Assembly (NCBI GenBank): GCA_031761875.1
Contig: CP134492.1
Coordinates: 2,914,001-2,978,000 of the forward strand
DNA: 64,000 nucleotides
From: Bacillaceae bacterium IKA-2
GTDB taxonomy: Bacteria > Bacillota > Bacilli > Bacillales > Anaerobacillaceae
Direction: 5' to 3'
Under the pieces are notes generated by a model, which ran no database searches, had not been told where the DNA came from, and saw nothing but the letters and a program-made list of their open reading frames with translations. Each line of letters starts with the position of its first letter. Position 1 is the stretch's first letter. The translations under genes and the position numbers were made by a program. Below are positions 12,651 through 15,723 of this stretch, in pieces.

Positions 12651-13097
12651 TTATTCCTTGATTCCTAAAACACGGTTAACACGTTTGGTAAGCATTTTCA
12701 TACCACCACCACCTGCTTGAAAATGGCGTAATTGGCCTTCACTATCAAAAACATAATACGCAGGAACATATTCATTTTCAAAGGCATCAGCTAGCTTATG
12801 TTCACTATCTATAAAAATCGGTTGCGTAATACCATGCTCAAAAGCAACCTTTTTTATTTCTTCAATATCAAGATCTTTTTCTGAGCGGGGCATATGAACC
12901 GCAACTACATTTAATTGATCTTCATAGTCATCACGAAATTTGTTTACATTTGACATTGCTTCTTTACAAAGACCACAACTTATTGACCAAAAATGAAATA
13001 GTGTTGGCTTTCCACCTACTAAATCAGCTCTTGTTAAAGAAGTATTTATCCATTCTGTTGCGCCAGAAAGCTCCGGCATCTGAGTCCGTAATTTCAA
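12651..13097 (-). CDS. ykuV: Thiol-disulfide oxidoreductase YkuV
   Basis: 148 aa from TTG 13097. This start has AGAGGAG upstream and gives exactly the length and N-terminus (MKLR..MPELSG) of B. subtilis YkuV. It is a TlpA/AhpC-type thioredoxin-fold protein without signal peptide, so cytosolic. The active pair CGLC is Cys41/Cys44 in FWSISCGLCKEA, and the cis-Pro loop YVPAYYVF is present. YkuV proteins act as general dithiol oxidoreductases. It follows ykuU on the same strand after about 108 bases, so it may share its oxidative-stress control. Confidence 0.92.
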   Translation of the reverse strand: MKLRTQMPELSGATEWINTSLTRADLVGGKPTLFHFWSISCGLCKEAMSNVNKFRDDYEDQLNVVAVHMPRSEKDLDIEEIKKVAFEHGITQPIFIDSEHKLADAFENEYVPAYYVFDSEGQLRHFQAGGGGMKMLTKRVNRVLGIKE

Positions 13098-13205: not shown

Positions 13206-13751
13206 TTATAAAGTAGCTTGCCCTGGCTTCCAGTTTGCTGGGCATAGTCCACCAGTTTGTAGAGCTTGAAGTACACGTAGTGTCTCATCTACGTCACGAC
13301 CAATGTTATTGTGGTTTACAACCGCATACATTAGCTCACCTTCTGGGCTAATAATAAATAAACCACGTAAAGCTATACCAGCATCTTCTATTAAGACACC
13401 ATACTCTTTTGAGATAGTATGATTCGTGTCAGCAGCTAAAGGATACTTTAACTCACCTAATCCATTAAAATCACGATCTGTGTTAATCCAAGCTAAGTGT
13501 GTATGAATCGTATCAGTAGAGACACCTATCACGTCAGTATCTAAATCTTCGAATTCATCAAAACGATCGCTCACAGCTGTAATTTCAGTTGGGCAAACAA
13601 ATGTAAAATCCATTGGATAGAAGAAAAGAACTGTCCACTTATCATTTTTCATATTTTCTTCTAAAGTAACTTTTCCAAACTCTTTATTGGGCATTACCGC
13701 ATCCATTTCAAATCTTGGTGCTTGTTTTCCTACCATTCTCATGTCAGTAAT
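13206..13751 (-). CDS. ykuU: 2-Cys peroxiredoxin YkuU (probable ATT start)
   Basis: About 181 aa from ATT 13751, or 178 aa from ATG 13742. It is closely similar to B. subtilis YkuU (180 aa). The peroxidatic Cys is in DFTFVCPTE and the resolving Cys in GGLCPANW. It reduces hydrogen peroxide and organic peroxides with a thioredoxin-type donor, perhaps YkuV. The ribosome site AGGAGG (13760-13765) is 8 bases from ATT but 17 from the ATG, and an in-frame TAG precedes it. The ATT start also gives an MTDMRMVGKQAP beginning close to the homologue. A predicted promoter with a PerR-like box lies upstream. Confidence 0.9.
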   Translation of the reverse strand: MTDMRMVGKQAPRFEMDAVMPNKEFGKVTLEENMKNDKWTVLFFYPMDFTFVCPTEITAVSDRFDEFEDLDTDVIGVSTDTIHTHLAWINTDRDFNGLGELKYPLAADTNHTISKEYGVLIEDAGIALRGLFIISPEGELMYAVVNHNNIGRDVDETLRVLQALQTGGLCPANWKPGQATL

Positions 13752-13791
13752 ATGTAAAACCTCCTAAAAAATATTCCTTAAACAGGAACTC

Positions 13792-13834
13792 TAATTACAG
13801 TAATTATTATAAAAGAAATAATATAATTAGTCAA
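13792..13834 (-). promoter_or_regulatory. ykuU promoter with PerR-like box and 7-1-7 palindrome
   Basis: On the minus strand, TTGACT (13829-13834), a 17-bp spacer and TATAAT (13806-13811). The stretch TTATAATAATTACTG (13798-13812) matches the PerR consensus TTATAATnATTATAA except at its last three bases. Just downstream, TAATTAC-A-GTAATTA (13792-13806) is a perfect 7-1-7 inverted repeat at the start site. Peroxide-responsive repression fits the gene, but it is a prediction. In 13835-14046 I see only AT-rich sequence. Confidence 0.55.
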
Positions 13835-14046
13835 GAATAAAGAAATAATAACTTTAAATTACTAGTTTCATCCTTTTATAACAATTCTCTTGTTATTATA
13901 TCCTTTATCTAAGATAAAACGAATCATTTGCCTTATAAACTTAGGATAATTATTAAAACTTAGTTGACCCATTCTCAATTAAGAAATAAACTATTTTTTT
14001 AAAAGTGCGCAGATATGTAATCATCTGTTATTAGTATTTTCTTTAC

Positions 14047-14083
14047 GACGTAAGAGGTTGACTTTATGTCAACCTCTTACGTC
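14047..14083 (-). terminator. Perfect 16-bp hairpin past ykuS (possible terminator)
   Basis: GACGTAAGAGGTTGAC (14047-14062) pairs exactly with 14068-14083 around a 5-nt loop. The T-run lies on the ykuS side of the stem instead of after it, so a standard rho-independent terminator is doubtful. It may protect the transcript end. Confidence 0.45.
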
Positions 14084-14096
14084 AAAAAATATAATT

Positions 14097-14339
14097 TTAC
14101 TGAAATTTTTTTTCAACTTGCTGACAAACTTCATCAGCACTTAAGCCTTGGGCACTAATAACGGAGCCTTGAGTAACAATATTTTGAATACCCATCATAT
14201 TTTGATCTTGACCTGTGACAACGCAGCAATCACAGCCTTGTGCATCACTTTCTTGCTTTAATTGAACTACATCATACCCTTTTGCTTGCAGTGCTTCTTC
14301 CACATCCATTAAAGATTGCTCTACACCAACCTTAGGAAT
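14097..14339 (-). CDS. ykuS: UPF0180 family protein YkuS (probable ATT start)
   Basis: 80 aa from ATT 14339. A longer frame from ATG 14366 has no good ribosome site and would put the strong AAGGAGG (14347-14353) inside the coding region. AAGGAGG is seven bases before ATT, and translation from there gives (M)PKVGVEQSL, matching the B. subtilis YkuS beginning and its length of about 81. The conserved core is VGVEQSL, then [12 protein letters not shown] with a Cys-x-Cys-Cys cluster. Function is unknown. It lies between ykuR and ykuU as in B. subtilis. Confidence 0.85.
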
Positions 14340-14539
14340 AACTGTTCCTCCTTCCAAATGGTACATGAAATAAGTTAAGAGAGTTTTCTCTTACATCGGT
14401 AATGTAACCAAATAAGTGGAAGATTATTCTTAACTACTAGATGAAAAAACTAAAAATCTGTCTTTACCCGCTTCTCTCCTGTAAGTTAAGAGAGTAAGTG
14501 TGGTAGGGAGATCAAAGGATTTAAGAACTGTTGGTTTAT

Positions 14540-14579
14540 CTTTAGACTTTAGACTTTTGACTTTTGACTTTTGACTTTT
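14540..14579. repeat. 7-bp tandem repeat
   Basis: Two CTTTAGA units, three CTTTTGA units and a partial CTTTT in a row, followed by a short CTTTCCAT duplication (14585 onward). It lies between the ykuR stop and the start of ykuS, in otherwise unremarkable sequence. Confidence 0.75.
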
Positions 14580-14604
14580 CCAACTTTCCATCTTTCCATC
14601 TTTC

Positions 14605-15723
14605 TCAAATTGATTTTATATAATCGACAAGTAATTCAATCGCAAAGGGAATTGCTTCTTCATCTGGATTCAAAGAACTTGAATGTAATCCATGGCTTGA
14701 ATCTACACCTAACCAAAACATAAACCCTGGGATTTCTTTTAAGAAATAACCAAAATCCTCACCAGTCATTGCCTCTCTGCATTCAACAAAAGTAAGCTTT
14801 GATCGATTTTGAAGAAAAGTTATAAACTCACCAGTAACAACTTCATCGTTATATACTTGGCAATAGTTAGCCCCGAAGTCAATTGTTGCTTTGCACTCAA
14901 AGCCTTGCTCAATTCCCTTAACAAGGGCTGTAATTCTTGCTTTAATTGTAGCCATTGAATCCATAGAAAGTGTACGAATTGTTCCTTCTACTCTGGATCG
15001 TTCGGCAATAATATTTTGTTTTGTTCCCCCTGTAATTTTTCCTATTGTTACAACAGCTGAGTCTAGTGGATCAATGTTTCTTGAGACAATTGACTGAAAC
15101 TGCGTCACTAAATGGCTTGCGGCAACAACCATATCATTAGCATGATGAGGATAGGCAGCGTGACCTCCTGTACCTACAAGGTCAATAAATAACTCTGAAG
15201 TATTAGCAAAAAGTAATCCTTTTTTCGTTGCTACTGTTCCAACTGGGTACTCAGGTGCAATGTGCAAAGCAACAATTCTATCAGGAAGATTATTTTTCAA
15301 ATAATAACTTGCAAGCATTAGCTCCGCTCCACCCGGGCCCTCTTCCGCAGGCTGAAAAATAAATAGCAATGTATCCTTCGGTTGATTGGAAGCAAAAAAA
15401 GTAAGCACCCCTAGAGCGATACTCATATGAAAATCATGGCCACAAGCATGCATGTTCCCGATATGCTTTGATTTAAATGGCAGGTTTGTTTCCTCTTCCA
15501 ATGGCAACCCATCAATGTCAGCACGGTAAGCAACTACTTTTGTTGATTGACTGCCTTTCACTTTGACAAAAATCCCAGTCTTCCAAGTATCGACTTGCAA
15601 CAACTGTTGTGGCAAGTCTTTAATGTGCGACAACAGAAATTGTTGAGTCTCAAACTCTTCAAAGCCAAGTTCGGGAATTTGATGAAGTTCCCGCCTAATC
15701 GAAATAAATTCTGAAAAACTCAT
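14605..15723 (-). CDS. ykuR: N-acetyldiaminopimelate deacetylase
   Basis: 372 aa from ATG 15723, seven bases after AGAGGT. The GTG at 15729 is too close to that site. It is an M20D amidohydrolase that frees LL-diaminopimelate from its N-acetyl form in the acetylase branch of lysine and peptidoglycan synthesis. The metal-binding residues are visible: HACGHD near 97-102, the EEGPGGAE segment with catalytic Glu, and the C-terminal [10 protein letters not shown]. It lies downstream of dapH on the same strand, the previous enzyme of the pathway, in the B. subtilis order. Confidence 0.92.

Follow-up and report, generated by a model that had tools for sequence, protein, structure and literature searches.

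AUU Start Codons in Described Systems

The infC gene of Escherichia coli begins at AUU, a codon that serves the feedback of IF3 on its own gene (PMC5472188). The first-pass annotation of the DNA described here had named infC as the known bacterial case; it is not alone, however, as AUU is also the start of E. coli pcnB, where it was experimentally shown (PMC1780047), and of Staphylococcus aureus cvfC1 (PMC13009471). The S. aureus starts of cvfC1 (AUU), ccpN (AUA), and citZ (AUA) combine a non-canonical third base with an extended Shine-Dalgarno site and lower the output; reporters carrying AUU or AUA behind such sites reached about 10% of the AUG level in poor medium, and one AUA start up to 30% in rich medium (PMC13009471). 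An AUU start has also been proposed for lepA of Bacillus licheniformis and Borrelia burgdorferi (PMC1780047). In Streptomyces, the oxidative-stress gene sigR begins at GTC and is itself repressed by IF3 (PMC5472188). More generally, IF3 represses non-canonical starts (PMC5472188), and with AUU and the anticodon CAU in vitro, the share of full-length product dropped with rising IF3 (PMC10158994). In evolution, a switch from AUG to AUU was recorded for 1 of 61,358 reconstructed AUG starts, and one from GUG to AUU for 1 of 5,080 (PMC5622118); the AUG-to-AUU count would be expected to be low, as it rests on recognised starts.

Two neighbouring genes of Bacillaceae bacterium IKA-2 (one contig of 4.42 Mb), ykuU and ykuS, carry ATT at the place of the start codon. 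Like infC of E. coli and of this genus, which has a strong Shine-Dalgarno site 7 bases from ATT, they join this codon to a strong site; the ATT of infC is conserved genus-wide, whereas theirs occur in one genome only and have no known feedback. Lineage specificity is shared with the AUA of citZ, although ribosome profiling and reporter assays established the S. aureus starts and those of ykuU and ykuS are deduced from the DNA letters (PMC13009471). Streptomyces sigR offers the likeness of an oxidative-stress gene with a non-canonical start but differs in its codon, in coding for a sigma factor, in elements conserved across Streptomyces, and in an IF3 effect known from mutants (PMC5472188). The genes pcnB and lepA are other than ykuU and ykuS; their AUU likewise restores the full protein, and that of lepA was likewise proposed by inference (PMC1780047). 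The proposed AUU starts of ykuU and ykuS are known in kind and rare in number. Confirmed AUU-initiated genes besides infC are few in the literature surveyed, and no report of AUU starts in ykuU or ykuS, or of an IF3 paralogue of the kind described below, was found in the open-licence literature.

Start Regions of ykuU and ykuS

The features of both start regions are collected in Table 1, with positions in the window, i.e., the whole stretch of 64,000 nucleotides that was analysed. The names ykuU and ykuS are those of the first-pass annotation; profile searches give the AhpC/TSA family and UPF0180, respectively. YkuU matched PF00578 with an E value of 5.7e-37, its NCBIfam matches falling under their own cut-offs, and YkuS matched PF03698 as well as NF002845 over its whole length (137.9 bits against a cut-off of 102).

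Table 1. Positions of start-region features of ykuU and ykuS in the window.
Feature	Position	Strand	Remarks
ykuU start codon (proposed), ATT	13751-13749	minus	ATG at aligned position in 6/6 other genus genomes
ykuU Shine-Dalgarno site, AGGAGG	13765-13760	minus	8-base spacer to ATT; TTTAGGAGGTT identical in 7/7 genus genomes
ykuU rival start, ATG (codon 4)	13742-13740	minus	17 bases from AGGAGG; lysine codon AAA in 6/6 other genus genomes
ykuU coding region from ATT	13206..13751	minus	181 aa; AhpC/TSA-family peroxiredoxin; PF00578
ykuU promoter-like sequence, TTGACT-17-TATAAT	13806..13834	minus	11/12 matches
ykuS start codon (proposed), ATT	14339-14337	minus	ATG at aligned position in 6/6 other genus genomes
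ykuS Shine-Dalgarno site, AAGGAGG	14347..14353	minus	7-base spacer to ATT; AAGGAGGA identical in 7/7 genus genomes
ykuS coding region from ATT	14097..14339	minus	80 aa; UPF0180 family; PF03698, NF002845
ykuS in-frame upstream ATG	14366-14364	minus	From the ORF list; taken by callers limited to ATG/GTG/TTG

The spacings given by the first-pass annotation were confirmed on the minus strand: AGGAGG stands eight bases from the ATT of ykuU and 17 from its first ATG, AAGGAGG stands seven bases from the ATT of ykuS, and the only upstream ATG of ykuS would put that site inside the gene. The ykuU reading frame opens with ATT ACT GAC ATG AGA ATG, so that the first in-frame ATG is codon 4, which is present in the source genome alone among the genomes compared. 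The N-terminus is MSDKRMV in the six genus mates and MTDKRMV in some other relatives (L081, L085, L099). Folding of the ykuU leader revealed nothing that would draw the distant ATG toward the Shine-Dalgarno site; its folding energy was no more extreme than in the relatives, and the ykuS leader was the most stable of seven by about 1 kcal/mol. The promoter-like sequence of ykuU is one of nine such sites in the region, a number not above that in shuffled sequences (mean 8.2); by eye, similar hexamers precede the gene in most relatives aligned.

Read from ATT, residues 2-79 of YkuS match positions 2-79 of model NF002845, which has 80 positions, and the residues directly following ATT (PKVGVEQSL) are the same as in relatives, which indicates that this stretch is translated and disfavours the codon-11 ATG of this genome as the start. 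By eye, no purine-rich or Shine-Dalgarno site precedes the ATG at 14366, the sole upstream in-frame ATG in the ORF list, and the stretch from there to ATT corresponds in the alignment to leader sequence that is untranslated in the relatives and varies among them by one base in length. Judged from these alignments, ykuS has no credible alternative to ATT as its putative start. The first-pass claim that ATT restores the length and N-terminus of the Bacillus subtilis homologues was examined with NF002845 for ykuS and with genomes from the genus and from further Bacillaceae.

Start Codons of Orthologues

The comparison set consisted of members of the genus and of further Bacillaceae, with one genome per species. 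In all six other genomes of the genus, ykuU and ykuS each carried ATG, preceded by an unchanged Shine-Dalgarno site, and the sites of ykuU and ykuS align with those preceding the ATG of the orthologues. In the comparison of orthologues, which the first-pass annotation had proposed, ATT was found at either start in the source genome alone, every scorable orthologue of the wider set having ATG, TTG, or GTG. Among the best 80 of 123 named loci, the motif used to anchor ykuS was found in 76 (four were left unscored), and all 76 had a canonical start (ATG in 70, TTG in three, and GTG in three). In the same 80 loci, the ykuU motif was found in 26, all with ATG; in the other 54, a gene outside the flank or a divergent motif may account for its absence. 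In 30 loci taken from whole genomes, the ykuU motif was present in 28, comprising the source genome and 27 others, each of the latter having an ATG nearby; two loci were unscored, so that 27 of the 27 scored among the 29 other loci were canonical. The source genome itself was scored as ATG in this count only because of its codon-4 ATG. The named-locus and whole-genome sets overlap in at least three genomes of the genus. As any canonical codon within four or five codons upstream of the anchoring motif was accepted, the score proves that a canonical start exists and not which one is used.

Both genes, then, have AUU at the homologous start behind a well-placed Shine-Dalgarno site. As for a better in-frame canonical start, ykuS offers an upstream ATG that has no site, and ykuU an ATG 9 bases downstream at the 17-base spacing.

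Start Codons Across the Genome

Thirty stretches of the source genome (600 kb) and the window were compared with 30 stretches of a relative (G001), covering about 15% of the genome. This start scan gave 393 orthologue pairs, from which 96 with an unclear reference start, one lying outside, and two that were too short were dropped. Among the 294 judgeable pairs, a canonical codon was found at the same place in 262, nearby in 21, and in neither position in 11, compared with 6 of 288 in the reverse control. The 11 comprised ykuU, ykuS (reached by extension beyond the local alignment), infC, and eight others; infC appeared there with a mis-set reference start because scanning for canonical codons misses its ATT, which is shared with the relative. 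The eight others were set aside by eye as internal codons, stretch ends, or genes with a canonical start further on. They include an ATG-to-ATT difference in L179, which has no Shine-Dalgarno site and lies in promoter-like sequence, and a TTG-to-CTG difference in L126, for which the relative has, further on, an ATG with AAAGGAGG. Only ykuU and ykuS had convincingly lost a canonical start, and as these two were known beforehand, the number outside them is zero.

A separate scan of starts with strong sites returned 10 of 182 as non-canonical, two of them ATG-to-ATT changes, namely ykuU and a second case (L183), in which ATG follows as the next codon; the remaining eight were judged by eye to be internal or shifted, and ykuS lay outside that alignment. 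As far as the 393 pairs of source genome and G001 sample it, a general loosening of start codons is rejected. It follows from the start scan that AUU starts are rare in the source genome too and that its two are neighbours.

Spacing was evaluated in 352 genes whose ATG is conserved in G001, of which 110 had GGAGG or AGGAG within 30 bases upstream of it; the other 242 had neither there. The spacing was 4-13 bases in 103 of the 110. The seven outliers include ykuU (23, measured to codon 6) and infC (21), the scan being blind to their ATT; in the outlier at 17, a different ATG lies closer to the site.

Two further observations concern start codons elsewhere. The likely start of ykuV is TTG (13095-13097, minus strand), with AGGAG 10 bases upstream, and relatives have ATG, GTG, or TTG there; three neighbouring genes (ykuS, ykuU, and ykuV) hence seem to be without an ATG start. 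In an ORF of another stretch (G000, L129, +, 17999), the source genome and G002 have ATG, and G001 and G003 have ATA behind the same GAGGTG, possibly an AUA start or else an internal codon.

Interpretation of the ATT Codons and Alternative Starts

On the whole evidence, the two ATT codons are probably genuine starts that replaced ATG in the lineage leading to this species. The 30S subunit would be positioned by a near-perfect, correctly spaced Shine-Dalgarno site, and the initiator tRNA (anticodon CAU) would pair with AUU despite a third-base mismatch. Initiation at AUU would function but be weak and sensitive to IF3, as for infC, so that the output of the YkuU peroxiredoxin and of YkuS would be lowered and not abolished. 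Given that near-cognate initiation is aided by Shine-Dalgarno sites and repressed by IF3, a lower, IF3-sensitive yield of both proteins is likely. The sequence, its alignment, the restriction of both codons to the source genome among those compared, and the intact genes under selection are observed; that cells initiate at AUU, how well they do so, and that IF3 affects it are inferred from sequence. In all seven genomes of the genus, infC reads GGAGGTG-N7-ATT-AGT-AAA-GAC-ATG, from which it follows that AUU starts are used in this genus. Several points count against the explanation: AUG-to-AUU changes are very rare, and two within 600 bases are odd and unexplained; the rival ATG of ykuU, 9 bases downstream, is likewise unique to the source genome; and the pN/pS and unique residues of the source genome (see below) lie toward the upper side of the genus.

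The rival ATG underlies the alternative that fares best, though it is unlikely, in which the start of ykuU has shifted to the new ATG at codon 4, the ATT is former coding sequence, and ykuS is a separate case. The appearance of that ATG coincides with the loss of the upstream one, and the protein would be just three residues shorter. However, the site would then be 17 bases off, a spacing held by 1 of the 110 sampled sites, itself with a nearer ATG; no new Shine-Dalgarno site precedes codon 4; codons 2 and 3 encode TD, as in the relatives with MTDKRMV; and ykuS is left unexplained. With ATT retained as the proposed start, the codon-4 ATG may share initiation with it.

Somewhat less probable still is a local sequence error, one or both bases being miscalled and the real codons being ATG. 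The rarity of the two changes within 600 bases speaks for it, as does the canonical start of all other scorable orthologues in a comparison with one genome per species. On the other hand, two altered starts among 294 would correspond to about 2 errors per 1000 bases, at which, by estimate, dozens of stops and frameshifts would be expected in the sampled genes. A scan of the 393 pairs for split genes, which would miss breaks close to gene ends, found two in the source genome and two in the relative, each with a single in-frame stop in sequence resembling shadow ORFs. None was split by a frame change, and random error at the needed rate is therefore unlikely. Of the two forms of sequence error, the random one is thus improbable for lack of the expected broken genes, and the local one, raised by the first-pass annotation, keeps the low probability given here. 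The residues unique to the source genome after the first codons are also conservative: YkuU has four (counted from RMV) and YkuS two (counted from GVEQSL), against 0-3 for each other sequence in the two alignments.

Both genes are under strong purifying selection, with the source genome toward the upper side of the genus. For ykuU, pN/pS was 0.047-0.086 between the source genome and the six others and 0.013-0.077 among the others; for ykuS, the values were 0.120-0.193 and 0.047-0.211. The pS of pairs with the source genome ranged from 0.47 to 0.70, indicating a long branch. Relaxed selection is thus unsupported by pN/pS, though the source genome lies on the higher side. These values make it improbable that the genes are decaying, their starts lost as products unneeded in this possibly anaerobic lineage. 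A peroxiredoxin may be dispensable where members of the genus are described as anaerobic (PMC5255918), and the pN/pS of the source genome is slightly above that of most pairs of relatives; yet the coding regions have no stops and no radical unique residues, the Shine-Dalgarno sites are intact, and genus mates retain ATG.

As improbable is a start of ykuS at the ATG of 14366, adding nine residues. The frame is open from there, and G001 and G003 likewise have an in-frame ATG upstream of the site, but they also have ATG at the proper place. The AAGGAGG would fall within the added codons of an ORF with no site seen before it, the added stretch corresponds to the leader with its one-base differences in length, and the NF002845 model begins at ATT. 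AUU starts escape any gene caller restricted to ATG, GTG, and TTG; if ykuS begins at its proposed ATT, such a caller would give it nine false N-terminal residues.

IF3 Genes and Possible Control by IF3

The source genome encodes, besides the housekeeping IF3, a second, divergent IF3 at about 2,538,453-2,538,917 of the contig (L169 1492-1956, +), with a TTG start and GGAGG eight bases before it. It scored 96.9 bits with the infC model against 233.6 for the housekeeping IF3 and is without the RFRGR stretch of the C-terminal domain. The source genome alone had two IF3 matches among 199 genomes drawn from the order, itself included. In a phylum-wide sample of 398 genomes, 6 of the 397 besides the source genome, all belonging to a single different family of its class, carried relatives of the second IF3, with 50-62% identity under the stricter limit of that search. 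No close relatives were found on plasmids or phages, all matches being below 60% identity. By eye, ORFs near the gene resemble fragments of a transposase and a recombinase.

A link between the second IF3 and the AUU starts is tempting, but each is a single event in one genome, and the 393 pairs of the start scan gave no sign of a general loosening. The first-pass suggestion of IF3-dependent control of ykuU and ykuS is possible and gains plausibility from the precedent of sigR (PMC5472188). Retention of the non-canonical start across relatives, as in IF3-controlled genes, was, however, not seen, the six genus mates having ATG in both genes; since no relative examined has ATT, it is not a conserved regulatory device. 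Most doubtful of all is the idea that infC, ykuU, and ykuS are controlled together as a small AUU set, in which AUU would be relieved and the peroxiredoxin made whenever IF3 runs short, has its conserved cysteine oxidised, or is displaced by the second IF3. A PPVC motif with this cysteine is present in IF3 of the source genome, and such a set, if real, would be a translational peroxide switch made of start codons alone. Two AUU genes in one stretch, relatives bearing ATG, and a second IF3 in one cell would be a natural setting for testing how weak a start codon a conserved gene can bear and whether IF3 levels serve for control.

Repeats Near the Locus

Just after ykuS, a perfect 16-bp inverted repeat (GACGTAAGAGGTTGAC) with a 5-base loop occupies positions 14047-14083 of the window; no T run follows it on the coding strand, and the terminator scan did not report it. 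At about 14504-14606, the window contains a dispersed repeat of the CTTTAGACTTTTGACTTTTGACTTT type, for which at least 30 partial copies of 70-93% identity were found in the genome when 40 of 143 candidates were scored.
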